DNA of 64,000 bases from Halogeometricum pallidum JCM 14848 (GTDB lineage Archaea > Halobacteriota > Halobacteria > Halobacteriales > Haloferacaceae), in the NCBI RefSeq assembly GCF_000337095.1, contig NZ_AOIV01000044.1, positions 1 to 64,000 of the forward strand. The letters run 5' to 3'. The translations under genes were made by a program, and so were the position numbers. A model generated the notes under the pieces. It was not told where the DNA came from. It saw only the letters and a program-made list of their open reading frames with translations, and made no database searches. Below are positions 1,008-18,500 of the stretch, piece by piece. Each line of letters begins with the position of its first letter. Positions within the stretch are counted from its first letter, which is position 1.

Positions 1008-4000
1008 CTACGCCGACGGCTCCGCCGCGAACGTCAAGTCCGGAGTGACGAGCGGCGAGGCGTCCACCGAACCGGACGGCGTCGACGTGCCGGCGGCGTC
1101 AGACGACGTACCGCCCGACTCGGCCGACGTGCCGGAGGTGCCCGACGCCGACGCGTTGCTCGATGCGCCCGAGGAGTTGTTCGACGTCTGCGTCTGAAGC
1201 TGTTGTGCGTTCCGCTCCAGTTCGACCGTGAGCGTGTCGTTCTCGGCGCCGTTCACCTGTCCCTCCGGCACCGAGAGGTTCGCGCTCTGTCGCACGATGT
1301 AACCGCTCTCGTTGACGCTCGCGCCGGTCGACACCGTGTACGGGCCGGCCGCGCGGACGCTGACGTTCGTGTACCCCCGCTCGGGACCGTACTCGTCGTA
1401 GCCTGTCGTCGAGTACGGCAGCGTCATCGTGAACTCGCCGTTGTTGTTCGTCTGGGCCTTCTGCGTGTAGGTGAACGTGCTGTTCGACCCCGGCATCCGC
1501 ATCCGCACGCTCGCGGTGACGGTGCTGTTGGCGGGCGCACCGCTTCCCTGCACCGTCGCGCCGGGAACGCGCTCGAACGTCTTCACCCACGAGTTGTCGC
1601 TCGGGAGGACCGCCTGCAGGTCGCTGATCTGCCGGACGGTGAACCCGGCGGCCCGCGCGTCGCCGACGGCCAACTGGATGTAGCTGTTCGAGGACAGCGC
1701 GGAGGTCTGACTCGCCTGCACGAGGCGGTAGTGCTGGAGCGCCGGCACGTCCTCCTCGGGGTAGCCGCCGATGCCGCCGACCTGAGCGGTCCCGTCCCGT
1801 TCGACGAACTGGCGGGCCGCGCTCATGTTGTTGAACTGGCGGATGACCGAGGCGTTGCCGCGCGGGTTCCTATCGATCGTCTGGTTGTTCTGCAGCGTCT
1901 GCGGTTCCCAGTCGACGACGACCGGTGCGGCCGACTGCGAACTCCCGTGGTAGTAGTACAGTCGGGTCATCAGGCTGTCGTAGTAGCGCTGGTCGCGGAC
2001 CAGGAAGTTCTGTCCGGCGTACGATCCATCGCTGTTGAAGCGGTAGACGCGCGTCGTGAAGAAGTCGTCCTGCGAGACGTTCTTCTCGGCGTCGTAGAAG
2101 ACGGTGGGGGCGCTGAACTTCGACCCGGGTGAGACCATCTTCCAGTCGACCATCACGTAGCGGGTCTGCTCGCCCTCGGTGCTCTGGGAGGCGAGGACGT
2201 CCTGCGCCTGACTCTCGTTGGGGGCGAGAAGGAAGTTCGCCGCCTCCGTCGCTCCCTGCTGGAACGGGTTGGCGTTCGGAATGCGCTCGCCCTCGACGGT
2301 GATCCAGTGACCGTAGTCCCACCACGACATCACGCCGTACGCGCCTTCGGGATACTTGAAGTCCTCGGTGTACTCGTACGTACCGTACTGGTCCAGTTGG
2401 TCGGCGTTACCCGCGCCGCCGAAGTCGCCCTCGGCGGGCGTCGACTGGTTCATCCACTCGAGAGACTCCTCCCAGATGAGCACTTCTCCGGGGGACGTGG
2501 AGGCGCCAACCTGCCATGCGGTGCTGGTCGTCGCGCTGCTTCCGGACGCCGTGCTCACCGATATCGGGACGACGAGGGCGGGCGTGAGGATGAGCAGAAT
2601 CGCCGCGACGACGGCGATGACCTGGTAGCCCGAGACGTCGTTCACGCGCTTGACCGATTGGAGGCCGAGGTAGCTCGACCCGACGAGTTCGCCGATGAGG
2701 TAGGCGTTGGCGACGGCGACGGCGACGGCGAGATAGTAGTTGAAGCGCACCTGCGTGAACGCCGCCGCGGTGATGAACGCCAGCCAGACGAGGACGAACA
2801 GCCGCTCGGGTTCGTAGCGCGCCTGCAGGACGGCGCCGACGATGAGCGCCGAGACGATAACGAGACCGACGAGTGCCGGATCGACGCCGATAGCGTCGCC
2901 GACGAGACCGGTTATCGCCGGGACGAGGAGGATGACACCGATGGCCGCGAGCGCGCCGATTGCGTATCCGATCTTACGCGAACCGCCGTCGCGGATGAGC
3001 GGCTTGGCCGTCAGCCAGACGACCGCCGCGACCCCGGTGAAGAAGGTGAAGCCGTACTCGAGGATGATGGCGTTCGCGCCCGTCACCGACCCGGAGAGGA
3101 ACGGTTGCGCCTCGCCGATGGTCCGCGTCGACGCACCGGCGCTGAATCCGACGGTTCGGAGCAGGTTGTGAGTGATGCTCCCAAATACGTCAGGTAGGAT
3201 GACCGCGAATAGTCCGACGGCGACGAGGATGAGACCGCCGACGGCCGCCGGGTACAGCGACTCGTCGATATCCTTCGATTCCCAGACACGGGCGAGCGCC
3301 GCGAGGACGACGGCGCCGGCGCCGACACCGAGAGAGAGGAGGGGCTGAAGGAGCGTAAAGCCCGTCACGCCGAAGCCGGGTTCCTCGATGAGCGCGAACA
3401 TCATCGCGCTCGTCACGAGCATCGAGACGGCGGCGACGTAGGCGACCGGTTCGGGAGAGTCTCCGCGTACGTGGTCGTGCACCATCTGCAGAACGAAGTA
3501 GACGCCGACGATGCCGACGAGGAGAATTCCCGGCGGCCACACCCACATGTAGACCCCGGTGGCGAATCCGGCGAGGGCCGCCCAGAGGGTCGGTCGGCGG
3601 AGCGCTTGCCCGTCTCGTTGTGCGACGAGTTCCCAGACGGGTTTCTCACGCGCCGCGACCGTGAGCGCGATCATGATCGCGAAGACGGCGAACGCCATGA
3701 ACAGCGGTTCCGCGACGTTGTGATCGGCGAAGCCGACGAGGCCGCGACGGAGGAACGTCCCCGGGAGGAGCATGAGCACGACAGCGCCGAACAGGCCGCC
3801 GATGCGACCGCCGAGGCGTCTGCCGATGAGGTACGTCGGAATCACGGTGAGGGCGCCAAACACGGCGGGGGCGACCAACAGGGTCTTCCCGACGAGCATC
3901 TGAGAGGGGTCGCCGAGACCGAGTATCAGGGCGGCGGTGGCGATCAGTTGGTCGTACAGCGTACCAAACTGACCGGCGAGCGTTCCGTACGGGAACCCGG

Positions 4001-4238
4001 TCCACGGGTCGAACGGCATCGTGAACGGCCAGTTCCTGACCGTGTAGTTCACTTGGCGGAGGTGGTACCACGCGTCGTTTCCGGAGAAGAACACTTCGCC
4101 GTCGACGATAAACCGGTCGTAGCTGCGGAGTCGTATCCACAGCATGACGGCGAAGATGCCGGCGAGGACGGCTTTAGGGTAGTGAGTACGGAGGGAATCC
4201 GCTGCGGAGGGCGAACTCTCTCGTTGCGAATCGCTCAT
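1008..4238 (-). CDS. aglB: Dolichyl-phosphate oligosaccharyltransferase AglB
   Basis: AglB is the STT3-family oligosaccharyltransferase that moves the lipid-linked glycan to Asn of secreted proteins on the outer face of the membrane. The 1,076-residue protein has an N-terminal part of many membrane segments with the acidic loop FFSGNDAWYHLR, then a large external domain with the signature WWDYGHW at residues 639-645. A Ser/Asn-rich low-complexity tail follows. The open frame extends to 4325, but I chose ATG 4238 (MSDSQRESSP) because a TATA-like box lies 20-34 bases before it and the added 29 residues look non-coding. It is divergent from aglG. Confidence 0.96.
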   Translation of the reverse strand: MSDSQRESSPSAADSLRTHYPKAVLAGIFAVMLWIRLRSYDRFIVDGEVFFSGNDAWYHLRQVNYTVRNWPFTMPFDPWTGFPYGTLAGQFGTLYDQLIATAALILGLGDPSQMLVGKTLLVAPAVFGALTVIPTYLIGRRLGGRIGGLFGAVVLMLLPGTFLRRGLVGFADHNVAEPLFMAFAVFAIMIALTVAAREKPVWELVAQRDGQALRRPTLWAALAGFATGVYMWVWPPGILLVGIVGVYFVLQMVHDHVRGDSPEPVAYVAAVSMLVTSAMMFALIEEPGFGVTGFTLLQPLLSLGVGAGAVVLAALARVWESKDIDESLYPAAVGGLILVAVGLFAVILPDVFGSITHNLLRTVGFSAGASTRTIGEAQPFLSGSVTGANAIILEYGFTFFTGVAAVVWLTAKPLIRDGGSRKIGYAIGALAAIGVILLVPAITGLVGDAIGVDPALVGLVIVSALIVGAVLQARYEPERLFVLVWLAFITAAAFTQVRFNYYLAVAVAVANAYLIGELVGSSYLGLQSVKRVNDVSGYQVIAVVAAILLILTPALVVPISVSTASGSSATTSTAWQVGASTSPGEVLIWEESLEWMNQSTPAEGDFGGAGNADQLDQYGTYEYTEDFKYPEGAYGVMSWWDYGHWITVEGERIPNANPFQQGATEAANFLLAPNESQAQDVLASQSTEGEQTRYVMVDWKMVSPGSKFSAPTVFYDAEKNVSQDDFFTTRVYRFNSDGSYAGQNFLVRDQRYYDSLMTRLYYYHGSSQSAAPVVVDWEPQTLQNNQTIDRNPRGNASVIRQFNNMSAARQFVERDGTAQVGGIGGYPEEDVPALQHYRLVQASQTSALSSNSYIQLAVGDARAAGFTVRQISDLQAVLPSDNSWVKTFERVPGATVQGSGAPANSTVTASVRMRMPGSNSTFTYTQKAQTNNNGEFTMTLPYSTTGYDEYGPERGYTNVSVRAAGPYTVSTGASVNESGYIVRQSANLSVPEGQVNGAENDTLTVELERNAQQLQTQTSNNSSGASSNASASGTSGTSAESGGTSSDAAGTSTPSGSVDASPLVTPDLTFAAEPSA

Positions 4239-4256
4239 CGTCTCCACCGACTGGGA

Positions 4257-4272
4257 ATATATTGATAAGCCT
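4257..4272 (-). promoter_or_regulatory. aglB promoter TATA region
   Basis: Read on the minus strand this is cttatcaatatatt, an AT-rich island in GC-rich DNA, 20-34 bases before ATG 4238. A purine stretch ggagacg sits directly before the ATG. Confidence 0.5.
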
Positions 4273-4326
4273 TGTGATGCACGTTCTGGGGGGTCTAACC
4301 CGCTAACGCGGGCATTGAAGGACAAC

Positions 4327-6987: not shown

Positions 6988-7010
6988 GGATTAGGATTCA
7001 GGTGGACCTT

Positions 7011-7017
7011 GTAAATA
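7011..7017 (-). promoter_or_regulatory. aglF promoter TATA box
   Basis: On the minus strand atatttac lies 24-30 bases before the aglF ATG, with no Shine-Dalgarno, which fits leaderless transcription. Confidence 0.55.
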
Positions 7018-7148
7018 TGTTTGTGAGGTCCTCATCGCTAGCCTCTGTGGACCATGTACGTCAGTCCACCCAGTACTGGGCTGCCCGCGGCCTCTCGAAT
7101 CGCCTATGTCCACAGTCAATCTAATAACGATGGCCGAGGAAGAACCAG

Positions 7149-7682
7149 ATGCAGTACATGTTGTCTGATATTTACCACGCCTATCGCTCGGTCCGGTCGG
7201 AACTCGCACGCCGCTTTTACACCAAGTTCGTGAAGATACAAGTGCGGTCATACGGAAGCAGTTTACGAGTGAATGGGCCAACGAATCTGAACCGGTCTAC
7301 TACTCTCGGCGACGACGTTCACTTCAACGGACTCGAAATCAACGGCGAAGGCGAAGTGGAAATCGGAGACCACTTTCACTCTGGACGCGACTGTATCATT
7401 CACACCCAACGGCACAACTACCACGGTGAAGAACTCCCCTACGACGACGAGATGATTCACGAACCGGTGGTCGTGGGGGACAACGTCTGGCTCGGTCATC
7501 GAGTTATCGTTCTCCCGGGAGTAACAATAGAGGAGGGCGCAATCGTCCAAGCAGGAAGTGTCGTCGTCGAAGATGTCCCGAAGTGCGCTATCGTCGGCGG
7601 CCATCCGGCGACACAGTTCGCGAGTCGGGACGAAGACCACTACGACCGTCTCCGAAGCGAACAACTAGACCGTAAACGTTAG
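7149..7682 (+). CDS. Left-handed beta-helix O-acyltransferase (hexapeptide-repeat family)
   Basis: The 177-residue protein is built of hexapeptide repeats forming a trimeric left-handed beta helix (for example [42 protein letters not shown]). The catalytic-type histidine is in HTQRHNYHG. Members transfer acetyl or other acyl groups to sugars or amino sugars. In this cluster it probably acetylates the N-glycan or a nucleotide sugar, which is inference; a NeuD-like role in nonulosonate O-acetylation is one possibility. It marks the left edge of the AT-richer insert. Its stop codon overlaps that of the convergent sulfatase-like gene by four bases. Confidence 0.78.
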
Positions 7683-9550
7683 AAGTACCCCAACTGCCGA
7701 AGATGTTCTCTCGTCTCCTGATCGGTCTCTGCGGCGAGTCCCGAGTCGTCTACGATCGGTTTCTTCGTTACGAACGATGCGGCTTTGTCCCGTAGGTGTC
7801 GTTTTCTGTCCTCGTCTATGCTCTCTGCGTGGTCTCCCGTATCTCCCTCCCTGACCGCTTCGAGTCGGTAAAACTCCTCGTACTCCGGGCCTCGGTCAAT
7901 CGTCTCCTCGGTCGGTCGGTCGGGGAAGTTGTCTGAGTAAGTGAATATCCCCTTTATTCCCTCTTTTTCGACGGATACGTTGTACCAGTCGGGGTCTATC
8001 CGTTCGGTGATTCGAGTGCGGTCGGGGATGTCCTCTTGCCATGGGATGCCCGGACAGTACGGCGGCGGTGATTCACCGACTGCACGAGCGATTGTCGGTA
8101 ATATATCCAGTTCGTCCGTCTCCGTCGGCACGCTCCAATCGGAACCCTCTGGAGGTTTCACCAACACGGCCGGCCGGATGTTCTCGTCGTACAGGGACGT
8201 ATGGCTGTAAACTCCCCGCTCACCGAACTCTTCCCCATGGTCTCCAGTGATAATTATCAACGCGTCGTCGTACAGACCATGGGTTTCTAACCGGTCGAAC
8301 AGACGCACCAACTGTGACCCGATGTAGTCAACTGACTGGCCGTAGTACCGCTTAATTTCATCGAGTACCTGCGGGTCCATTGGGTCGTCAAGGGACCGAA
8401 CGAGTTTCAGGTAGTCCGAGTTATCCGGACGGAGGTCTGTAAACCGCTGGACCACGTCGTAATCTACTGAATCGCCATCGTACAAGCTTCGTGGTGGGTA
8501 GTACGGGTAATGTGCGTCGAAGAGGTGAGCGAAGTAGAATACGTTTGGATTCCCAACGTCAACGTCCAACCATTCGATCAGTTGGTCGACGGTTGCACGC
8601 GTGTCCGTCTCTCTGGTGTTCCAGCGGTCGTGAGCCATCTTGTGGAGTTTGAATCGGTCGAACCCACGACCGAAGCCGAACTCCGGAAGGATACGGGTGT
8701 GGCTCACGATGGCCGAAGATTTGTAGCCACGACGCGAGAGCAACTTCGGAATCGACTCCAGTTCCGGGTGGATCGGGTGACTCGGGTCACCCGGTTCGCG
8801 GGCACCGACGTATCTGTGGTCTCCCGGATGAACACCGGTGAACATCGATCCGTGAGACGGAGCGGTCCACCGTCCTTGAGTTCTCGGTTCTTTTGGACGG
8901 TAGAAGTCTCCACTATACGACTTGAAGACTGAGGTTAATTTCTCTGCGGCGTCCCACCGTAACGCATCGACAGAGAGTAGGACTATCGGTGGTTTCTCTG
9001 ATTCGTCTCGGAGACGAGGTGCCTGAAGTCGGGGTTTCTGTTGCTTGTACTGGTCATTCTCGGTGACGAGGTTGAGGAGTCGCGTACCCAGTGAACTCTG
9101 CGTGCTTTTCTCTGTCTCTAACGTTAGCGTACCCTCAACCACCGCCTCGTCGAACGTGAACCTAACAGGAAGATGTTCACGCTCGGGTGGCCCGCTATCT
9201 TCTTTCGTTGCTGTCCGACGAACCACCGTTCCATCATTCGTGACGAATTCTCCCACAACCCTGAACTCTTCACCACTCCCTGCGCCAACTACGTAAAAAT
9301 CGATTCGTTTGGTCGGTATTTCGCGGGAAAATTCTATTTCATCAGATTTCGAGACAGTAAAGTACCACTCCCCGCTTTGGATGATTGCGACTTCATTGGG
9401 AGCTTGAATGTACTCCGGGGACTCGAATGAGTCCACAAATTTGGTTATCTGAGGTGCCTTGCTTTTCTGGAGGAGAAAGTCGATGGGTTCAGAGAGATTT
9501 CCATGCCGAACGTGCTGGATACCCGTTTTTATACGTTCTCTGTCGATCAT
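7679..9550 (-). CDS. Sulfatase / alkaline-phosphatase superfamily hydrolase or transferase
   Basis: The 623-residue cytosolic-looking protein has an N-terminal beta-rich domain (about 1-180) of unknown role and a catalytic domain of the alkaline-phosphatase fold. Metal ligands are visible: D195 in [11 protein letters not shown]345 and H347 in LFDAHYP, D437 and H438 in [13 protein letters not shown]. The nucleophile position in WTAPSHG is Thr229. Sulfatases have Cys or Ser in CxPSR there, so a phosphodiesterase, phosphatase or phospho-group transferase is more likely than a classical sulfatase. The C-terminus [10 protein letters not shown] is typical of the family. Its partner may be the related 11,628 gene. 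No signal peptide is visible. Confidence 0.78.
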
Positions 9551-9999
9551 TATGAGTGAGTCACCTGTACGAAGCAGTGTCTATTAGCATTCGTGGATTC
9601 GAGACGACTTGTAAATACGACACTAATCTGCGAGAAGAATGTAACAGAAAATATCAATGACGACTTATCATCAGTGTAGTCGGACTAGTCGGCTTACTGT
9701 GTTGATGAAGACGACGCCAAGAGGTAGCGAAGCCTACTTAGTGAATATCAAGCTAACCGCTACTTCCTCTGATACCGTTTGAAACGCCCAAACCGACGGT
9801 AACCCAGTAGGACGTACGGTCTCTTTTAGCCTCGTCAATAAATATAGCGGGGTCTGTGAGACTCTGGGTGCGCGGTAGACAATCTATAGATGTAAGTGCC
9901 CTCACGATTGAGTCAGGACGACGAAAGATCAAAATCTTACCTTGTGACTATCTGCAATGTTAACAACTATCATATGCCGATTTTCGACTCTTCGTATCA
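9551..9999. other. AT-rich intergenic region without a convincing gene
   Basis: This 449-base stretch is much AT-richer than the flanking chromosome. I find no credible ORF. It must hold two divergent promoters: ctaatag read on the minus strand at about 9578-9588, before the gene starting at 9550, and aactatcatatg at about 9964-9975, before ATG 10000. An additional box aataaatata at 9836-9846 has no gene behind it. A short tandem repeat tagtcggac/tagtcgg lies near 9677-9693. Confidence 0.5.
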
Positions 10000-11469
10000 A
10001 TGTCTAATACAACGGATACATCCGATGTAAGCTTGAGCGGTGAGACGCTCTCCGGAACTACTGCGCAGGTAATCAAAACGATAGTCGGATTCTTCGGAAC
10101 CATTGTCTTTGCACGGGTTCTGGGACCGACCGGATACGGCGCATTTTTTCTGTTGCTTTCGTTGGCAACTATCGCAAATCGCCCGCTAGCTGGATGGTCA
10201 GAAGCCGTAAAAAAGCGCTTCTCTGAGGAAATCACCGAACAGAACCGCGCCGATTTGTTCGGTTCAGTGTTCCTCGTCTCCCTCTCCGTTTCATTGGTTG
10301 TGGTTGGTCTGACGGCACTTCTTTCAGAACCTCTCATCGAGTATGCTGGTGTCGACGATGCTCCGCTGTTATTCGTTCTCCTCTTTGCAATTACTGGAAC
10401 TTATTCGATGATCGTCCAGACCACTCAGGGGAGAGGGTTAGTTAGTGTTACAATCTGGACGAAGACCCTAAACGAGATTATTGCTGTGCCGATACAGATC
10501 CTTCTCGTCCTTTCCGGGTTCGGGATGGCAGGGATGGTGTACGGTTACGTTACTGCTCTCGTCGTAGTCTCTCCAATTCTGTTCTACTATATCGCAGTCG
10601 TCCCGTCGATGCCGTCCAGAGACACTCTTTCTAGTCTTTGGTCGTATGCCGCCTACAGCATCCCTAATGCGTTTCTCGGCAAAATATACTCACGCTTCGA
10701 CATTCTTCTTCTCGGTGCGTTGCTTACGCCTGCGGCCGCAGGATACTACGAGGCGGCACTTCGGGTGTCGGCTCCGGCTGTTTTCGTAAGTACGGTCATC
10801 GGTTCGGCCTTGCATCCTAGAGTAAGTCACCTACTGAGTCAGGGAAGTGACCCCGGTGAAGATATCCAAAACACACTCGGATATACGAGCATTTTCGCAT
10901 TTCCACTGTTCTTCGGCTCTCTCTCGGTTGCAGGTCCCCTAATTACGACCATTTACGGTGCGGACTTCGCCCCGGCAGCGAGTCTTCTCGTCGGCCTCGC
11001 AGTCTTCCAACTCTTCTACTCTCAGACGACAGTTCTGATTAACGTCGCTAGCGGATGGGATCGTCCGGATGTCGTCACTCGCCTATCGGTTGTCGCACTA
11101 ACTACCAACATCATTCTTGGGGTACTCCTTACCAGGGAGTTTGGCCCGATCGGAGTCGTTGTTTCGACGATCCTCGCAGAGTCGTTTCGATATCTCGGTC
11201 TCATCAGATTCGTCTCTACCAAAATTCAACTATCGGCGTTGTTTCCTCGCCCGATGTTTGAGCAACTCGGTGCTTCGGTTGTCATGTTCGTTGTCGTTAC
11301 CGGGCTCGTTCAGGCTATCTCTCTTAGTTCGACGATACAATTAGTTCTCGTAATCGCAGTTGGCGCTGTAATCTATTTTGCGCTCCTGTTTCTGATAAGC
11401 AAACAACATCGAATCACGGCTATCTCTAGCCTCGAAGCGACGTTCGATGACAGATTCCAATTGAAGTAA
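10000..11469 (+). CDS. Oligosaccharide flippase family protein (Wzx / AglR-like)
   Basis: The 489-residue integral membrane protein has about 12-14 hydrophobic segments and the polysaccharide-export topology. The opening is GTTAQVIKTIVGFFGTIVFARVLGPTGYGAFFLLLS, split here only by my limit, and the motif VLGPTGYGAF is typical of the family. Wzx-type proteins move lipid-linked oligosaccharides across the membrane. In the agl cluster of H. volcanii the related AglR is proposed to translocate dolichyl-phosphate-mannose, so the cargo here is uncertain. Codon use favours A/T in the third position, unlike region 3 onwards, which supports transfer of the insert. ATG 10000 has an AT-rich box about 27-35 bases upstream. 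Confidence 0.82.
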   Translation: MSNTTDTSDVSLSGETLSGTTAQVIKTIVGFFGTIVFARVLGPTGYGAFFLLLSLATIANRPLAGWSEAVKKRFSEEITEQNRADLFGSVFLVSLSVSLVVVGLTALLSEPLIEYAGVDDAPLLFVLLFAITGTYSMIVQTTQGRGLVSVTIWTKTLNEIIAVPIQILLVLSGFGMAGMVYGYVTALVVVSPILFYYIAVVPSMPSRDTLSSLWSYAAYSIPNAFLGKIYSRFDILLLGALLTPAAAGYYEAALRVSAPAVFVSTVIGSALHPRVSHLLSQGSDPGEDIQNTLGYTSIFAFPLFFGSLSVAGPLITTIYGADFAPAASLLVGLAVFQLFYSQTTVLINVASGWDRPDVVTRLSVVALTTNIILGVLLTREFGPIGVVVSTILAESFRYLGLIRFVSTKIQLSALFPRPMFEQLGASVVMFVVVTGLVQAISLSSTIQLVLVIAVGAVIYFALLFLISKQHRITAISSLEATFDDRFQLK

Positions 11470-11627
11470 GTGACCTTCTATTGGTTGTCTTTCGAAGTAT
11501 AATAAAGAGAGACTATCTAATCGAGGACACGACGCTCACATTCGAGTCGAGCGTCTTGGCTATCATCGAATAGCAGATTGTTGAAAACGGGACGTATTAA
11601 TACTCACTGGTGTAATACCGGAAGCAC

Positions 11628-12554
11628 ATGAAATATCCAAGCAGAGATCGTGAGACTGGCGATTCATTGCTAGTTCTTGCACTTGACGGCACAGACTTAC
11701 GTTTAGCCGAACAGTGGGAATGCGACAATCTTCTTTTGGACCGACATGGCCAGATAGACACGTTTGCTTATTCACGCGACCAACCGTGGACTCCGGAGGT
11801 TTGGACGGCGGTTGCGGCAGGAGAACATCCACGTGACACCCAGACAGTAGAACCGGAGTGGAATCATCCCGTTTTGCGGTTCGCATCGAACATAACGCGT
11901 AACCTACCACTTAGTGTTCGAAGTCGTCTCGGAGACCTTGTCGAGGCCGCCTCGGTAGAGTCACGTGAGGAAATGAATTTCCCAACCATATCTGGTGAAC
12001 ATGCATTCACTAATGCGGAGGTGAAGGGTTGGCCAGGTGTTACACCTGCGAACAATCTCCTACAAACTTGGGACCTATACCGAGAATTGACCAGTGGCAC
12101 CTGCTCGAAATCAGAGCACCACGCACCGATAGTTGCTAATCACTACGAGGAAATCGGGTGGCTCCGTGGTCATGCGTGTACAGGAACGCCACTCGCAGCG
12201 TGTCATCTTCACCTCTTAGACACGATGGGCCACATCTACGCCGACCGGCCCGAGTCATTGAAACAGTACTACCTCCTTGCTGACGAACAAGTCGGATCAC
12301 TCCGCGACGAAACTGACCGAATGATTATTCTCTCAGACCATGGAATGAAGACAGGACTGTTCGACGACGATCGTCTCGGATCGCATTCTTGGCGAGCGAT
12401 GGTCTCTGCGACTGAAGACGTCGAAGGTACACTGCCAACAAGTGTCTTCGATGTTCGCGAGTGGATCGAATCTCAGGACACAACCGTCTCGGATCGGAAT
12501 GAACTCTCGCCAGACACAGACCGAGAGCAGCTAGAGGCACTGGGATACATTTGA
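11628..12554 (+). CDS. Alkaline-phosphatase superfamily protein (nucleotide pyrophosphatase/phosphodiesterase-like)
   Basis: This 308-residue protein is small for its family. The ligands can be followed: D20 in LALDGTDL, Thr55 in QPWTPEVW as nucleophile, D198 and H202 in LLDTMGHIY, D237 and H238 in LSDHGMKTG, and H253 in GSHSW. It ends REQLEALGYI like sulfatase-type proteins. The threonine suggests a phosphodiesterase or pyrophosphatase reaction. With the 7,679 gene, two members of one superfamily flank the flippase, so a role in trimming or modifying lipid-linked or nucleotide-linked sugars is likely but inferred. Base composition is that of the AT-richer insert. Confidence 0.72.
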   Translation: MKYPSRDRETGDSLLVLALDGTDLRLAEQWECDNLLLDRHGQIDTFAYSRDQPWTPEVWTAVAAGEHPRDTQTVEPEWNHPVLRFASNITRNLPLSVRSRLGDLVEAASVESREEMNFPTISGEHAFTNAEVKGWPGVTPANNLLQTWDLYRELTSGTCSKSEHHAPIVANHYEEIGWLRGHACTGTPLAACHLHLLDTMGHIYADRPESLKQYYLLADEQVGSLRDETDRMIILSDHGMKTGLFDDDRLGSHSWRAMVSATEDVEGTLPTSVFDVREWIESQDTTVSDRNELSPDTDREQLEALGYI

Positions 12555-13130
12555 ACGGACAACGGTTTCTCGAGTCTACCGTGTTCTCTGCCGGAGGAGG
12601 CTACTCTTCAACTATCAAACCCGACATGTCGACTACTGTCTGTTGTTCCTCTGAGAGACCACCGCTACAGAGAGCGACAGATCCTTCTAGGACGAATTAG
12701 TATATCTGCTTTCTACTTCGACAAGGGTTCTTCTCTAGACTACTATAAGTTGAAATGAAATGACACTGACCCTCGTTCGTCGATCTCGTTGAATCCCGTC
12801 TCTGTGAGTTTTCTTTCGTACGTGGTGTCTCTACCCACGGAACCCTGAAATCTACCCAGGAGAACGCGGCACTTCTCTTCGAGGAGTGGAGACTCTTTCT
12901 CAGATAAATTGAGATTCTCCCCTCGATATCCACGAACATGGAGATTGTCCTGCAAGCGGAAACGAACGAACGCGTTGATCAATGAACAGAGTCCTTCCGT
13001 GTCCTTCTGTCGACACCGTTCCGTGCATCTTCGATGAGTGGTATCTTCTGACCCCACAATCTCAATCCCGTAAATAGTTTGTGAAACCTGGAAAGTAAAA
13101 TGCGACACCAGAAAGTTCATCGTCTGTATC
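12555..13130. other. Intergenic region, no supported gene
   Basis: These 576 bases contain only overlapping minus-strand ORFs of 80 and 125 codons (12,697-12,939 and 12,743-13,120). Their translations have no recognisable motif and are rich in Arg, Cys and Thr, unlike the acidic proteins around. It could be the remnant of a decayed gene in the island or simply spacer with the promoter of the next gene. The sequence is AT-rich throughout. Confidence 0.4.
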
Positions 13131-13880
13131 GTGAGTTATTACGACGTGGTGATCGTATCAGTCATACCCGCTCGAGGGGGAAGTAAGGGAATCGAATACA
13201 AAAACATTATTCCGTTTCTCGGTAATCCCCTCCTTTCGTATACAGTAACTCAGTCCGTCACGTCTGACTCCATCGACCACACATTCGTCTCGACAGATGA
13301 CGAGAATATTGCCTCTGTAGGACGGGAGTACGGAGCGGAAATAATTGAGCGTCCCGACGAGTTGGCGGGTGACGAGGCAACGACGGAGAGTGCCCTACTT
13401 CACGCTGTCGAGACAATGCAGGAACGAGATATCAACCCGGACATAGTCGTTCTCTTACAGTGCACCTCCCCGCTGCGTCGAAGTGGTGATATAACTCGGA
13501 CCGTCGAACTCCTCACCGAAGAAGGGTATGATTCGGCTCTCAGCGTCTGCGAGGATCACAAGTTCTACTGGGAGACGGGGAACAACGGTGCAGAGCCTGT
13601 AAATTACGACCCGGCGAATCGAAAACGACGACAGGATCTCGAGCAGCGATATCAAGAAAACGGATCTATCTATGCCGTACGAACGGGCGTTTTCGAAACG
13701 CATGAATGTCGTCTCGGGGGGCAGATCGGACTCAACACTATGCCAAAATCGTTGAGCTTCGAGATTGATGATAAGGACGACTTGCGAATCGTCGAGTCAA
13801 TCGGACGAAATGTTGAATTTCACACCGGAGAGTTAGATGTGGACTACGACTCAGAAACGACGACTGAGGTCGACGTATGA
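13131..13880 (+). CDS. neuA: Acylneuraminate / nonulosonate cytidylyltransferase (NeuA-like)
   Basis: The enzyme activates a nonulosonic acid (sialic, legionaminic or similar) with CTP to the CMP-sugar. The CTP-binding motif IPARGGSKGIEYKNI is near the N-terminus. FVSTDDENIA, LLQCTSPLRRSGDI and the late motif RYQENGSIYAV follow, all typical of the family. Length is about 249 residues, near the usual 230. The listed start is GTG 13131; GTG 13149 (MIVSVIPARGG) fits the family better and is a real alternative. It is convergent with the neuB fusion, five bases apart. Which nonulosonate it uses cannot be told from sequence alone. Confidence 0.85.
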   Translation: MSYYDVVIVSVIPARGGSKGIEYKNIIPFLGNPLLSYTVTQSVTSDSIDHTFVSTDDENIASVGREYGAEIIERPDELAGDEATTESALLHAVETMQERDINPDIVVLLQCTSPLRRSGDITRTVELLTEEGYDSALSVCEDHKFYWETGNNGAEPVNYDPANRKRRQDLEQRYQENGSIYAVRTGVFETHECRLGGQIGLNTMPKSLSFEIDDKDDLRIVESIGRNVEFHTGELDVDYDSETTTEVDV

Positions 13881-13885
13881 ATCGG

Positions 13886-15775
13886 CTATAGGTACGCTCC
13901 GAGCCGTTCTGCTGCCTTCTTGAAGCCCTCTCCACGACGTTCGTGACCGCGCCAAATCTCCGTGATAACGGGACCATCATAGTCCTCGAATACGGGAGCC
14001 AATCGCTCGAAATCGATTTCGCCCTCGTCGATCTGCAGTCCCTCACCGTCAACACCTGCTGCATCTGCCACGTGGAGATACTCAATGTACGGACGGAGCT
14101 TTTTTGCGTGCTCTACGAGGTCAACGTCAGCATAGTTACACCAGAGTTTCGCATGCGAGGTGTCGTAGCAGATTTTCTGGCCCGTCTCTTCGCAGTACTC
14201 CGCAATCTCATCAGCTCGCATGAAATTGTTGTGGTACTGCTGACCTCCATATATCCACGGAAGTGGTGGCATGTTTTCCACAAGGCACTCGACGCCCTCG
14301 TCGTCAAGTTCGTTCATACTTTTTTTCAACGCTTCGTTCATTGCTGGGACAGATTCGAGTTCCATGTGGTTAGAGGTGATTCCGCCAGGATGGATCACTA
14401 TCTGCGGTTCGTGGTCCGTCTCAAAGTGGGGGGATACAGTTTCTCGGACTAAGTCGATTACATCCTGAATTATCTCTACCCCCTCTCGGCGGACTGTCTC
14501 GTTGGTTGAACTGAGATCTACCAGATCGTGTCCTTTCTGTTCGGGCGCATGGACTCCGAGTCGCTTGTCGAAGGTGCGGCCGTTGAGTACCTCGTCGATA
14601 TCCGCGCTAATATCCGCACCATTGACACGGAACTCGTATACGTCCGGATTACCCCAGTCGTGTTCGATAATATCCGAGAATCGAACGACTACTCCCCAGT
14701 TATACAAGTCCGTGTCAAACTCTCTAGATTCGGGTTCACGAATGTCCTCCCAAGTAAGCGTCGTATCATTCCGGATATCACGAGATGCGGTGTTCCCTAT
14801 GACGTCGTAGAGAAACTGAGGTGAGATCCCCTTCGCTGGACTCTTTGCCGTGAGGTCGTCTCGGGCTATCTCTGTTCCAGCTTGGATATCCCGTTCGGCG
14901 ACAAGGCTCTTGCCGAGTGCAACTCGGTTGTTGTACTCTCCGCGGGTCAGATACCGAGTCGGCGAGCCGTAGCTCTCTTCGATGTTCCTGATATCGCGGA
15001 TTAATTTCTTCAGTCCAGTTGGTTCAAGGCTCGCTGCATGGTCTGGACCCTCCATCGTTCGATCCATAGTGAAGTGGCGTTCGATTATCGTCGCTCCCTT
15101 CGCGGCTGCCGCAGCCGAAACTGCGATTCCGCGTTCGTGCCCAGAGTATCCGACGGGGACGTCGTACTCTTCACTCAACCGCTCCATGAACGAGAGATTC
15201 AGATTATGGAACGGTGCTGGATACGTGCTTCGGCAATGCAGAAGACCGAATTCGGCACCGTTCTCTTCGAGGAACATCACTGTCCGTTCTATCTCCTCCT
15301 CGCTCGCCATACCGGTCGATACGACTATCGGTTTCCCGGTTTTGATCACCTTTTCGAGGAGAACGAAGTTGGTCATATCCGGCGAGCCGATTTTGTAGAA
15401 CGGAATGTCGATAGATTCGAGGAAGTCGACGCTCTCTGCGTCCCACGGGGAACAGAGAAACTCAATATCCATGTCCTCACAGTACTCTGCGAGTGAGCGG
15501 AATTCTTCGTCACGTAGGGCGATGTCTTTGAGATTAGAGAGTGTGTATTCAACGCCCATCTCTGCGACTGACGGGTCGTTGTACACATCACCTACGTACG
15601 TCCGATCGAGTTTTCGCTTTTGGAACTTGACTGCGTCCACTTCTGCGTCTGCTGCGACGTCGATGAGTTTCTTTGCTAGTTGTACGCTCCCGTTGTGATT
15701 GATTCCAGCTTCTGCAATGATGTACGTCGGCTCGTCATCGCCGATGACTCGTCCCGGAATCGAAATTTTACTCAT
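13886..15775 (-). CDS. neuB: NeuB-family nonulosonate synthase fused to a TIM-barrel sugar isomerase/epimerase-like domain
   Basis: The 629-residue protein has three parts. Residues about 15-275 are a NeuB domain (IIAEAGINHNGS, KIGSPDMTN, VVSTGMASEEE, LLHCRSTYPAP, VGYSGHERGIA, IERHFTMDR), which condenses an amino-hexose with phosphoenolpyruvate. Residues about 290-350 are a SAF/antifreeze-like domain (VAERDIQAGTEI). Residues about 360-629 are a second TIM barrel of the xylose-isomerase/AP-endonuclease-2 type (VIHPGG, LVENMPPLPW, CYDTSHAKL, YLHVADAAG, VITEIWRGH). NeuB enzymes normally end after SAF at ~340-350 residues. The extra barrel may act on the precursor sugar. ATG 15775 is preceded by gaggag and a TATA box. 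Confidence 0.88.
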   Translation of the reverse strand: MSKISIPGRVIGDDEPTYIIAEAGINHNGSVQLAKKLIDVAADAEVDAVKFQKRKLDRTYVGDVYNDPSVAEMGVEYTLSNLKDIALRDEEFRSLAEYCEDMDIEFLCSPWDAESVDFLESIDIPFYKIGSPDMTNFVLLEKVIKTGKPIVVSTGMASEEEIERTVMFLEENGAEFGLLHCRSTYPAPFHNLNLSFMERLSEEYDVPVGYSGHERGIAVSAAAAAKGATIIERHFTMDRTMEGPDHAASLEPTGLKKLIRDIRNIEESYGSPTRYLTRGEYNNRVALGKSLVAERDIQAGTEIARDDLTAKSPAKGISPQFLYDVIGNTASRDIRNDTTLTWEDIREPESREFDTDLYNWGVVVRFSDIIEHDWGNPDVYEFRVNGADISADIDEVLNGRTFDKRLGVHAPEQKGHDLVDLSSTNETVRREGVEIIQDVIDLVRETVSPHFETDHEPQIVIHPGGITSNHMELESVPAMNEALKKSMNELDDEGVECLVENMPPLPWIYGGQQYHNNFMRADEIAEYCEETGQKICYDTSHAKLWCNYADVDLVEHAKKLRPYIEYLHVADAAGVDGEGLQIDEGEIDFERLAPVFEDYDGPVITEIWRGHERRGEGFKKAAERLGAYL

Positions 15776-15784
15776 CACCGTTGG

Positions 15785-15807
15785 CTCCTCTATGAAACAT
15801 TAAAAAC
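15785..15807 (-). promoter_or_regulatory. neuB fusion promoter and ribosome-binding site
   Basis: On the minus strand tttttaa (15,800-15,807) is a TATA-like box, and gaggag (15,785-15,790) lies 9-14 bases before ATG 15775. A Shine-Dalgarno is uncommon in the single genes here and favours ATG 15775 over the preceding GTG 15778. Confidence 0.5.
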
Positions 15808-15836
15808 CCATTGTACAAACAGAACTCTGAACGGCG

Positions 15837-17273
15837 TTATCCGTGGCTCTCGGTGTCACGATGGTCGCGGTCAAGGTTCGACTGAATCTCAGCTAGCGCT
15901 TGGCCTACGTTGTGAATCGCGTCGGAACGAAAGTATCGTTCGGTATCGAATGAGATCGGGGTGTCAGTCTCTTTCTCGATGTCGGACGGACGATCGAGTA
16001 TCTGGATGTGAGGTTCCGAGAGAAGCCCGCGCATGTACTCTATTCCAGGAAGGTCGACGAGGAACGTCTGAAGACCGAACATCAGTCCTTCGTATACTGC
16101 TGTCGAGTAGACACCGACCTGCGTCGAAGCCTCCGCAAAGAGTTGATACAGCGATGGTTCTTCTTGATCTATCACAGTGATGTCCGAACCGACGAGCCAC
16201 GGGTACTCGTCTTCCCAACGGTCGTACTCTCCAGGGTGGAGTTTGTACACCACCTCTCGTTTGGAACCGAGATATTCGCTCGTCTCGACTGCAAACTTCG
16301 AGAGTTGTTCCCCGATCGAGCCTTGTGAGACGAACACTACCGAGTCTGTCGAATCGATGCCGTCGTAGGTGTCTGCTTGCATCTCGAGGTACGGATACCC
16401 GACGTGGAAGATACGCTCCTCGTCAATCGGAAGTTCAACTTGTTCCGTCCAGAACGGCCCAAACGAGAGGAAGTAGTCTGGGAACGTTTGTCTCGCTCGC
16501 TTTCCTCTCGAAGAGTACCCCATATGGTATTTATTGATAGTTCCGTGTTGCAGTTCCACTGTCGGGATGTCGTACTCGTGACAGGCCTCAACGAACGATT
16601 CTTTTCCGTAGCTAACCACCAGGATAGCTATATCGGGATTTACATTCTGGAGAAGTCTTTTATACAGAGGGAGAGTGGCCTCCCGGTCTGCAAGAGCATC
16701 TTGAACCCCCCCTACTACGTCGACTGAGACCCCAAAGTGTCGTTCGATGTCTGACTCGACCGATCTGAGGGTCTCAACCTCGGACTGACCAAGGTCATAG
16801 GGATTGAGGGTTTTCCATATCGTCCCGGAGTAGTTGATGACGTCGACGAACCGGCGGTTCTGTGTCTTTGCCGGTGAAGCGTGGTCGAGTTGATAGTCGT
16901 ACTCTATATATTCGTAGTCAAGATCGATCGAATCGAGTATCGGGTCGCAGTAGAGATCCCACCACAGTCCGTCGTTTCTCAGCTTTCGGCGTGGGTGTCC
17001 ATAAAATAGAACATCTCGCTCATCAGCAAAAAATGGGCTTTTGTACACTACATTTCGACCCCAGAGATACAATCCTCGGAGACGTTCGGAAAGAGTCACT
17101 CCTTTTTCGGTGTGAGCACTGCCCAGCAGTTCGAGTGCTTCAAGTATTTCTCTGTGAATCCCAAAACGAACGTACTCCCAGAAGCAGACACCGTCGATAC
17201 GACGATTCAGCAGATCCCACTTGCTTTCAATAGAGAGGAATGTCTCACTCACACTCTCGTAGGTCCATTCCAT
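15837..17273 (-). CDS. GT-B-like glycosyltransferase, candidate nonulosonate (sialyl-type) transferase
   Basis: I do not recognise a named family with certainty. The 478-residue soluble protein has an N-terminal half with LFYGHPRRKLR and a C-terminal half with VELQHGTINKYHMGYS, HVGYPYLEMQ, VFVSQGSIGEQL, YKLHPGEYDRW and an acidic EEPSLYQLFAEAS segment followed by YSTAVYEGLMFG. A His-Pro motif followed by a Ser/Thr-containing loop is characteristic of polysialyltransferases, capsule transferases and CDP-glycerol transferases. Next to neuA and neuB, transfer of the CMP-nonulosonate to the glycan is the simplest role; this is inference. The ORF opens at 17,300, but ATG 17273 (MEWTYESVSE) looks right. 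It could share a transcript with the neuB gene 61 bases downstream. Confidence 0.6.
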   Translation of the reverse strand: MEWTYESVSETFLSIESKWDLLNRRIDGVCFWEYVRFGIHREILEALELLGSAHTEKGVTLSERLRGLYLWGRNVVYKSPFFADERDVLFYGHPRRKLRNDGLWWDLYCDPILDSIDLDYEYIEYDYQLDHASPAKTQNRRFVDVINYSGTIWKTLNPYDLGQSEVETLRSVESDIERHFGVSVDVVGGVQDALADREATLPLYKRLLQNVNPDIAILVVSYGKESFVEACHEYDIPTVELQHGTINKYHMGYSSRGKRARQTFPDYFLSFGPFWTEQVELPIDEERIFHVGYPYLEMQADTYDGIDSTDSVVFVSQGSIGEQLSKFAVETSEYLGSKREVVYKLHPGEYDRWEDEYPWLVGSDITVIDQEEPSLYQLFAEASTQVGVYSTAVYEGLMFGLQTFLVDLPGIEYMRGLLSEPHIQILDRPSDIEKETDTPISFDTERYFRSDAIHNVGQALAEIQSNLDRDHRDTESHG

Positions 17274-17585
17274 GGTTCTATCGACCGCCGGACGAGTCAA
17301 AAAGTGATTGTTTGAGGACGGATCCTACGACTGCCGCGGCTAGGGCAATCTCACACTTTCAACGTTGCGGAGTCTTATTCTCGTCACACGTAGAGGTGCA
17401 TACTTTTAGGTAGCTTTTGTACAGTTGCCTCGGTAAAACTGATGGGATACCTGATACTGGCTCACGAGCGTTTCGATCTTTTGATCGCTGCTCGAACTCC
17501 GTTTCCCTTGGATAGTTGATGTGAGGAGGTTCAGAGGTGCGACAGAAACGAATCCTTCATTACGATGCTAAGACAGACGCGAACG

Positions 17586-18500
17586 ATGCCCTCACTCGAC
17601 TCCGTCTGCGTCCTCGTCCCCACCTACAACGAGGTCGAAACCATCGGCGACGTCGTAGCCGAATTCAGAGAAGAGGGCTTCGACAACGTCCTCGTCATCG
17701 ACGGCGGCTCGGAGGACGGCACCCCCGACATCGCCGGAGAACACGGCGCGCGGGTCGTCATGCAGTCGGGGTCGGGGAAGGGACAGGCCATCCGCGAGGC
17801 CGTGGAGTACCACGTCGACGCCGAGTACGTCCTGATGCTCGACGGCGACGCGACGTACCGCGCCGCCGACGCCGAGAAGATGCTGGCGCCGTTGGACGAG
17901 GGGTACGAACACGTCATCGGCGACCGATTCGCCGACATGAAGAACGGTGCGATGACGCGGTTCAATCGGTTAGGAAACCGCGCCGTCAACGGCGGATTCG
18001 CCACCATCCACGGACACGACTTCCGGGACATCCTCTCCGGCTATCGGGCGTTCACGCGGTCCTCGTTCGGTCGAATGACGCTGACCGCCGACGGGTTCGG
18101 CGTCGAGACGGAGATGGCCGTCGAGTGCGTCAAGCGGAACATCCGGACGACGGTGGTGCCGGTCACCTACCTGCCGCGACCCAACGGGTCGGACACGAAC
18201 CTCAGACCCGTCCGAGACGGGGGGATCATCTTCCTCGAACTGTACCGGCGGGCGAAGACGAACAACCCCCTGTTCTACTTCGGGAGCGTCGGCGGCGTCT
18301 CGACGGCCACGGGGTTTCTCATCGCCGCGTACGTCGCCGTCGAGTGGGTGACCGTCCGCATCTCCCACGAGGTGCTCGCCATCGTCGCCGCGTTCGCCGT
18401 CATCGTCGGCGTGCAACTGCTGATGTTCGGCGTCCTCTCCGACCTCATCCTGACGTTACACAGAGATACGCTCCGGAAGATAGACGAAGAGTCCGACTGA
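17586..18500 (+). CDS. aglJ: Dolichyl-phosphate hexosyltransferase AglJ
   Basis: AglJ adds the first hexose to dolichyl phosphate. The 304-residue protein has the DPM1-like GT-A core (VCVLVPTYNEVETIGDV, VIDGGSEDGT, LMLDGDATYRAADA with the DGD metal motif, SGYRAFTR). Two C-terminal membrane segments follow (TATGFLIAAYVAVEW and LAIVAAFAVIVGVQLLMFGVLSDL). The frame is open from 17565, but MPSLDSVCVL at 17586 gives the length known for H. volcanii AglJ. GC content returns to the chromosome norm here, so AglJ is the conserved right edge of the agl cluster and lies outside the AT-richer insert. Confidence 0.9.
   Translation: MPSLDSVCVLVPTYNEVETIGDVVAEFREEGFDNVLVIDGGSEDGTPDIAGEHGARVVMQSGSGKGQAIREAVEYHVDAEYVLMLDGDATYRAADAEKMLAPLDEGYEHVIGDRFADMKNGAMTRFNRLGNRAVNGGFATIHGHDFRDILSGYRAFTRSSFGRMTLTADGFGVETEMAVECVKRNIRTTVVPVTYLPRPNGSDTNLRPVRDGGIIFLELYRRAKTNNPLFYFGSVGGVSTATGFLIAAYVAVEWVTVRISHEVLAIVAAFAVIVGVQLLMFGVLSDLILTLHRDTLRKIDEESD

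Follow-up and report, generated by a model that had tools for sequence, protein, structure and literature searches.

A candidate family of archaeal CMP-nonulosonate transferases encoded beside NeuB in surface-glycan gene clusters

The window analysed here, a 64,000-nucleotide stretch of the Halogeometricum pallidum JCM 14848 genome, carries at 15837..17273 on the minus strand an intact open reading frame (from an ATG at 17273 to a stop codon whose last base is 15837) for a 478-aa protein that, from homology, invariant motifs, NeuB co-occurrence and profile comparison, is a candidate CMP-nonulosonate transferase of a proposed new GT-B family. The next gene downstream (13886..15778, minus strand) encodes the nonulosonate synthase NeuB in fusion with SAF and AP_endonuc_2 (sugar isomerase-like) domains; it lies on the same strand after a gap of 58 bp, in agreement with the position given in an initial annotation of this DNA. 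Convergent on the NeuB fusion is the gene for a NeuA-type CMP-nonulosonate cytidylyltransferase (13131..13880, plus strand), for which PseF is the closest NCBIfam model, with a score under its cut-off. On the other side, a divergent gene starting 291 bp away (17565..18500, plus strand) encodes AglJ, a glycosyltransferase of S-layer N-glycosylation (TIGR04182, 447 bits against a cut-off of 325). The same cluster contains a polysaccharide or lipid-linked oligosaccharide flippase (10000..11469, plus strand) and the oligosaccharyltransferase AglB/STT3 (1008..4325, minus strand), together with two family-2 glycosyltransferases, a nucleotidyltransferase and a sulfatase. The adjoining AglJ and the presence of AglB count for a surface-glycan (N-glycan) setting, and AglB-like open reading frames also occur in the examined stretch of four other loci.

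Between about 7 and 17.5 kb (window 7000-17500) the G+C content is 0.47-0.56, compared with 0.60-0.70 on the flanks, so the nonulosonate part looks like, and probably is, an imported glycan island inside the N-glycosylation (agl) locus. NeuC, PseG, LegB and LegC were not seen in the host cluster; the genome's one epimerase match of NeuC/WecB type and its best aminotransferase match of DegT type lie on other contigs. Given this gene content, the AP_endonuc_2 (xylose-isomerase-like) domain fused C-terminally to NeuB (window 13886-15778) may supply the hexose precursor. A TATA-like stretch, ggtttttaat (window 15799-15808), precedes the start of neuB by 21-30 bp, and neuB may thus have its own promoter as well. 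The sulfatase-family protein (window 7679-9550) belongs to a blastp cluster (c4) that recurs in 14 of 26 loci, which suggests sulfated or phospho-decorated nonulosonate glycans, while a phosphodiesterase/nucleotide pyrophosphatase-like protein (window 11628-12554) has no counterpart among the other loci examined.

The 478-aa protein is acidic (84 Asp and Glu residues against 43 Lys and Arg), as fits a soluble haloarchaeal protein, and is devoid of transmembrane-like segments, with a maximum 19-residue hydropathy of 1.1. The HG, His-Pro and distal Ser/Thr motifs that the initial annotation had pointed out are all there. The HG element, VELQHGTINKYH, includes E240 and H243-G244, and its ELQHG portion (E240-G244; 16542..16556, minus strand) is proposed to form the catalytic-base loop. 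The His-Pro motif, YKLHPGEYD, holds H346-P347, and its YKLHP portion (Y343-P347; 16233..16247, minus strand) is a putative phosphate or leaving-group site, by equivalence to H291 of the polysialyltransferase MhPST (PMC5517516). The Ser/Thr loop, VGVYSTAVYEG, carries S390-T391 and E395 and would contribute a nucleotide-phosphate site (GVYSTAVYEG, G387-G396; 16086..16115, minus strand). Forty-five positions are invariant in an alignment of 24 homologues (A1) of 30-63% identity, among them ELQHG, HP, STA and EG, and nine residues (Q242, H243, G244, G292, P294, H346, P347, S390 and E395) do not vary at all among the 36 relatives aligned, giving the consensus QHG, GxP, HP and SxxxxE; of these 36, 34 retain T391 and 35 retain W32. 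Owing to this invariance across both the 24 homologues and the 36 relatives, the HG, HP and Ser/Thr motifs are not chance dipeptides.

Searches with the 478-aa protein against Pfam, PHROGs, PADLOC and PDB sequences returned no match, and NCBIfam gave a chance-level match only. Homologues were found with the protein in 23 of the 293 genomes of the host's order, the full-length cases sharing 31-64% identity, and a genome scan yielded four more loci, two of which duplicate sequences from genomes that had already matched. A profile search added two cases within the order: in G272 a divergent homologue that lies 6 kb away from NeuB, and in G158, a genome that lacks NeuB, a remnant of 60 aa. Outside the order it identified, by sequence alone, 12 distant relatives in genomes of the same phylum; the viral contigs and plasmids searched contained no relatives. 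The family thus occurs across the host's order and other lineages of the phylum and is unnamed in the libraries searched. The protein had been put forward as a founding member of its kind; rather than standing alone, it is one of about 35 relatives.

The family co-occurs with nonulosonate genes. Every one of the 23 genomes with a homologue encodes NeuB (PF03102), against 51 of 293 in the order as a whole (hypergeometric p about 2e-20), the opposite of the absence of neuA/neuB that had been named as evidence against a transferase. The flippase of the same cluster served as a control: it is present in 96 of the 293 genomes, and 14 of these 96 have NeuB, which is the background rate, so the tie to NeuB is not a general property of surface-glycan genes, and the notion that it reflects a mere habit of such genes was discarded. 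In all 34 pairs located on the same contig, the gene and NeuB lie 0-13.9 kb apart (median 4.2 kb). The 12 distant relatives outside the order all have NeuB, NeuA, NeuC, PseG, LegB or LegC within 10 kb, in several loci as an operon-like run with the family gene (L092, L095 and L100); their genomes encode NeuB in 11 of 12 cases, the exception being a 75% complete genome (G333) in which NeuA adjoins the gene and NeuB was not detected. One genome (G203) retains only short N-terminal pieces of NeuB and the family gene, facing and touching each other (L077 10306-11137; G203:C128:40428-40761), as if a single deletion had taken the 3' parts of both.

The family cannot be the sole transferase of this type, since 28 NeuB-positive genomes of the order have no close homologue. 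Other proteins with HG, HP and S motifs are encoded in NeuB clusters devoid of the family (L115 584-2053; L120 5861-7684; L101 5884-7629; L126 4967-6721), some with weak GT-B matches. These are candidates for further archaeal nonulosonate transferases, and their presence in several NeuB clusters indicates that archaea probably use several transferase families.

For placement of the family among known folds, 150 E. coli proteins were compared with a wider profile that includes the distant members and with a narrower 'mid' profile of the close family. With the wider profile, the top matches are KpsS (E 9e-6), MurG, the Kdo transferase WaaA and KpsC, with only sugar-nucleotide enzymes of GT-B type or of the capsule/sialyl group in the top ten of the 150. 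The 'mid' profile gave no convincing match to a known glycosyltransferase, with a weak WaaA lead only. The family profile also finds relatives (L095, L096 and L098) that match PF04464, PF02350 and PF05159 above cut-off, and the HP motif and STA loop superpose on KpsS in the profile alignment. AlphaFold2 models from five sequences, with relatives drawn from four loci (L025-L028), were poor (pLDDT 48 and 45), and fold searches made with them carry no weight: the C-terminal half gave no match, and the weak full-length model listed GT-B proteins first at a Z of about 5, which is not significant, the best being UDP-GlcNAc 2-epimerases including NeuC. From the profile and domain matches, membership of the wider family in the GT-B clan is well supported, with the link running through the distant members. 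A match to a non-glycosyltransferase family, which was to count against the proposal, did not turn up at any convincing level.

The profile data leave some room for a glycosyltransferase that acts on the same glycan with an ordinary NDP-sugar as donor, perhaps adding the sugar that later bears the nonulosonate. The wider family also matches the UDP-using GT-B enzymes MurG and WecB, and HP- and S-rich motifs also feature in UDP-using enzymes of the GT-B type, NeuC among them, and are therefore no proof of a CMP donor. Yet a transferase that lays down an acceptor sugar should often occur without NeuB, which none of the 23 first-search homologues does, and the tie holds over several types of nonulosonate. 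This reading is accordingly judged unlikely, and a CMP donor is favoured.

The nonulosonate pathways that accompany the family differ from locus to locus. Partner genes are of LegB/LegC/NeuC type in three loci (L034, L078 and L080) and of PseG type in five (L027, L033, L037, L039 and L079); six have NeuC without LegB or LegC (L035, L036, L040, L044, L046 and L048), and three have fused NeuA types (L025, L043 and L045). Several archaeal clusters encode a NeuA of 540-590 aa fused to a Glyco_tran_28_C (PseG-like) domain (L025 1561-3201; L096 11318-13081). A mirror-tree test, in which co-evolution was expected, showed that the phylogeny of the family gene is not matched by that of NeuB (r 0.09, permutation p 0.11), a null result taken to reflect mixed use of donor pathways. 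Together, the varied partners and the low correlation indicate that the common requirement is a CMP-nonulosonate rather than any one precursor, which points to a step after CMP-activation. An enzyme of precursor synthesis would be expected to follow a single pathway, while a transferase accepting any CMP-nonulosonate need not, and transfer is thereby favoured. The same reasoning bears on the alternative that the protein, with a GT-B fold, helps to make or modify the nonulosonate, for instance as a NeuC- or PseG-like hydrolase or epimerase, a view to which NeuC being a GT-B protein, the UDP-GlcNAc 2-epimerases at the head of the fold matches (Z about 5, low-confidence model) and the lack of NeuC in the host cluster lend some appeal; many loci encode NeuC or PseG besides the family gene, however, and the gene stays as the pathway type varies, where an extra precursor enzyme should keep to one type, so this explanation appears improbable.

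One locus (L034) can be compared with a published pathway. It carries legC, legB, neuA and neuC, genes for a formyltransferase and a PIG-L deacetylase, and neuB, with the family gene just upstream, and this arrangement is close to that reported for Halorubrum sp. PV6 (PMC6137143; GenBank MH673034). Genes 1042-1045 of PV6 are not among its listed glycosyltransferases (PMC6137143), and from the gene order of L034 we predict that one of them, beside legC, is a homologue of the family. The gene content of this Halorubrum-type legionaminic acid cluster (L034 12053-19565), with its formyltransferase and PIG-L deacetylase, suggests formation of N-formyl-legionaminic acid via deacetylation followed by formylation, and from gene order the PIG-L protein may correspond to the unlabelled HrrPV6_1052.

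Among characterized enzymes, the bacterial polysialyltransferases of GT38 (NeuS; MhPST) offer one of the closest parallels. Both have HP followed by an adjacent Ser-Thr, at a spacing of 44 residues in the 478-aa protein and 48 in MhPST (PMC5517516), a CMP-nonulosonate donor is proposed for the 478-aa protein too, and genes of both kinds neighbour neuB, neuA and neuC. In MhPST, the HP histidine H291 stabilizes the CMP leaving group and S339-T340 help hold the phosphate (PMC5517516). The D/E-D/E-G motif marks bacterial sialyltransferases of GT38, GT52 and GT80 (PMC2169525), and its Glu is the catalytic base in GT38 (PMC5517516, PMC2169525). The polysialyltransferase-like arrangement claimed initially is thus borne out for HP and Ser-Thr, while the HG element departs from it, an invariant QHG standing in place of D/E-D/E-G. 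Membership in GT38 was rejected on this replacement and on the absence of a PF07388 match in the 478-aa protein and its 24 close members (a distant relative, L097, reaches E 0.07 only); the GT38 protein ranks only 20 of 150 against the family. The 478-aa protein has no Pfam match to GT52 either, and the E. coli O104 GT52 protein, at rank 8 of 150 (E 0.008) when the wider profile is used, drops to rank 77 when the narrower one is. KpsS and KpsC, the beta-Kdo transferases of PF05159 (KpsC being GT107), include the best match of the wider family, KpsS; PF05159 was set aside because the 478-aa protein and its close relatives have no match, three distant relatives being above cut-off, and the gene differs in having NeuB and NeuA as its genomic partners. 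The suggested profile check places KpsS and KpsC among the best matches of the wider family and gives no support for membership of the protein itself in GT38, GT52 or KpsC/KpsS.

Two further groups resemble the family in part. Distant members match PF04464 (Glyphos_transf), the family of TagF-like CDP-glycerol glycerophosphotransferases, at 60.2, 41.4, 35.1 and 26.5 bits (cut-off 22.1), over the C-terminal half with the HG, HP and S motifs. Assignment to PF04464 was rejected for the 478-aa protein, which has no match, as was the case for all but one of the 24 close members (E 0.003). A TagF-like transferase that decorates the same glycan from another CMP or CDP donor, such as CDP-glycerol or CDP-ribitol, would explain why distant members pass the cut-off; TagF-like enzymes have another donor and belong to another pathway, and since the 478-aa protein lacks the domain match and the association is with nonulosonate genes, this seems very improbable. 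NeuE (DUF6716) of E. coli K1 lies in a similar neighbourhood (neuB-neuA-neuC-neuE-neuS); its function is unsettled (PMC2408645, PMC5517516), and it has been argued to be non-obligatory for synthesis (PMC2408645). A non-catalytic partner in assembly or export, as proposed for NeuE, would fit the weak DUF6716 similarity of five of the 24 members (best E 0.014, far under cut-off) and is hardly to be expected given the strict invariance of QHG, HP and S/E over 36 sequences, which argues for catalysis.

We therefore regard the 478-aa protein, with a probability of roughly 0.7, as a soluble cytoplasmic GT-B glycosyltransferase that would move a CMP-activated nonulosonic acid onto a surface glycan precursor. 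The sialyl/legionaminyl-type transferase first suggested thus stands as a strong candidate, backed by the co-occurrence with NeuB and NeuA, the invariant motifs and the GT-B placement of the wider family. In the proposed mechanism, the neighbouring NeuB and NeuA would make a CMP-nonulosonate donor of sialic-, legionaminic- or pseudaminic-type, from which the 478-aa protein would transfer the nonulosonate to the precursor; the reaction would be a transfer and not a modification. H346-P347 and S390-T391 would hold the CMP phosphate. With Ser-Thr 44 residues after HP and QHG where D/E-D/E-G would stand, H243 is the likeliest base and would replace the catalytic carboxylate of GT38 and GT80. The acceptor in the host cluster is most likely a lipid-linked oligosaccharide that AglB would place on the S-layer glycoprotein, an N-glycan acceptor being consistent with the gene neighbours. 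The Maf transferases would share CMP-nonulosonate donors with the candidate, and Maf4 was likewise identified partly via co-occurrence with CMP-Leg genes (PMC9298399); the 478-aa protein has no Maf-family Pfam match, and Maf acts on flagellin protein rather than a lipid-linked glycan.

In the literature searched, a single studied archaeal pathway to legionaminic acid was found, that of Halorubrum sp. PV6, and it stops at CMP-legionaminic acid. The same literature yielded no archaeal nonulosonate transferase candidate, Maf4 having later been proposed for Campylobacter flagellin (PMC9298399). The protein described here is a strong candidate for the enzyme, long missing, by which sialic-acid-like sugars would be joined to archaeal cell-surface glycans. 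Somewhat less confidently, the relatives may constitute a founding family of archaeal nonulosonate transferases with a GT-B fold, a QHG histidine in place of the carboxylate and several donors, which would cap haloarchaeal S-layer N-glycans and, elsewhere in the phylum, act on the surface glycans of further lineages. As the family is tied tightly to nonulosonate synthesis, it predicts which archaea bear sialic-acid-like surface sugars and names specific genes for deletion and assay, and in Halorubrum PV6 a nonulosonate-type sugar bears on virus binding.
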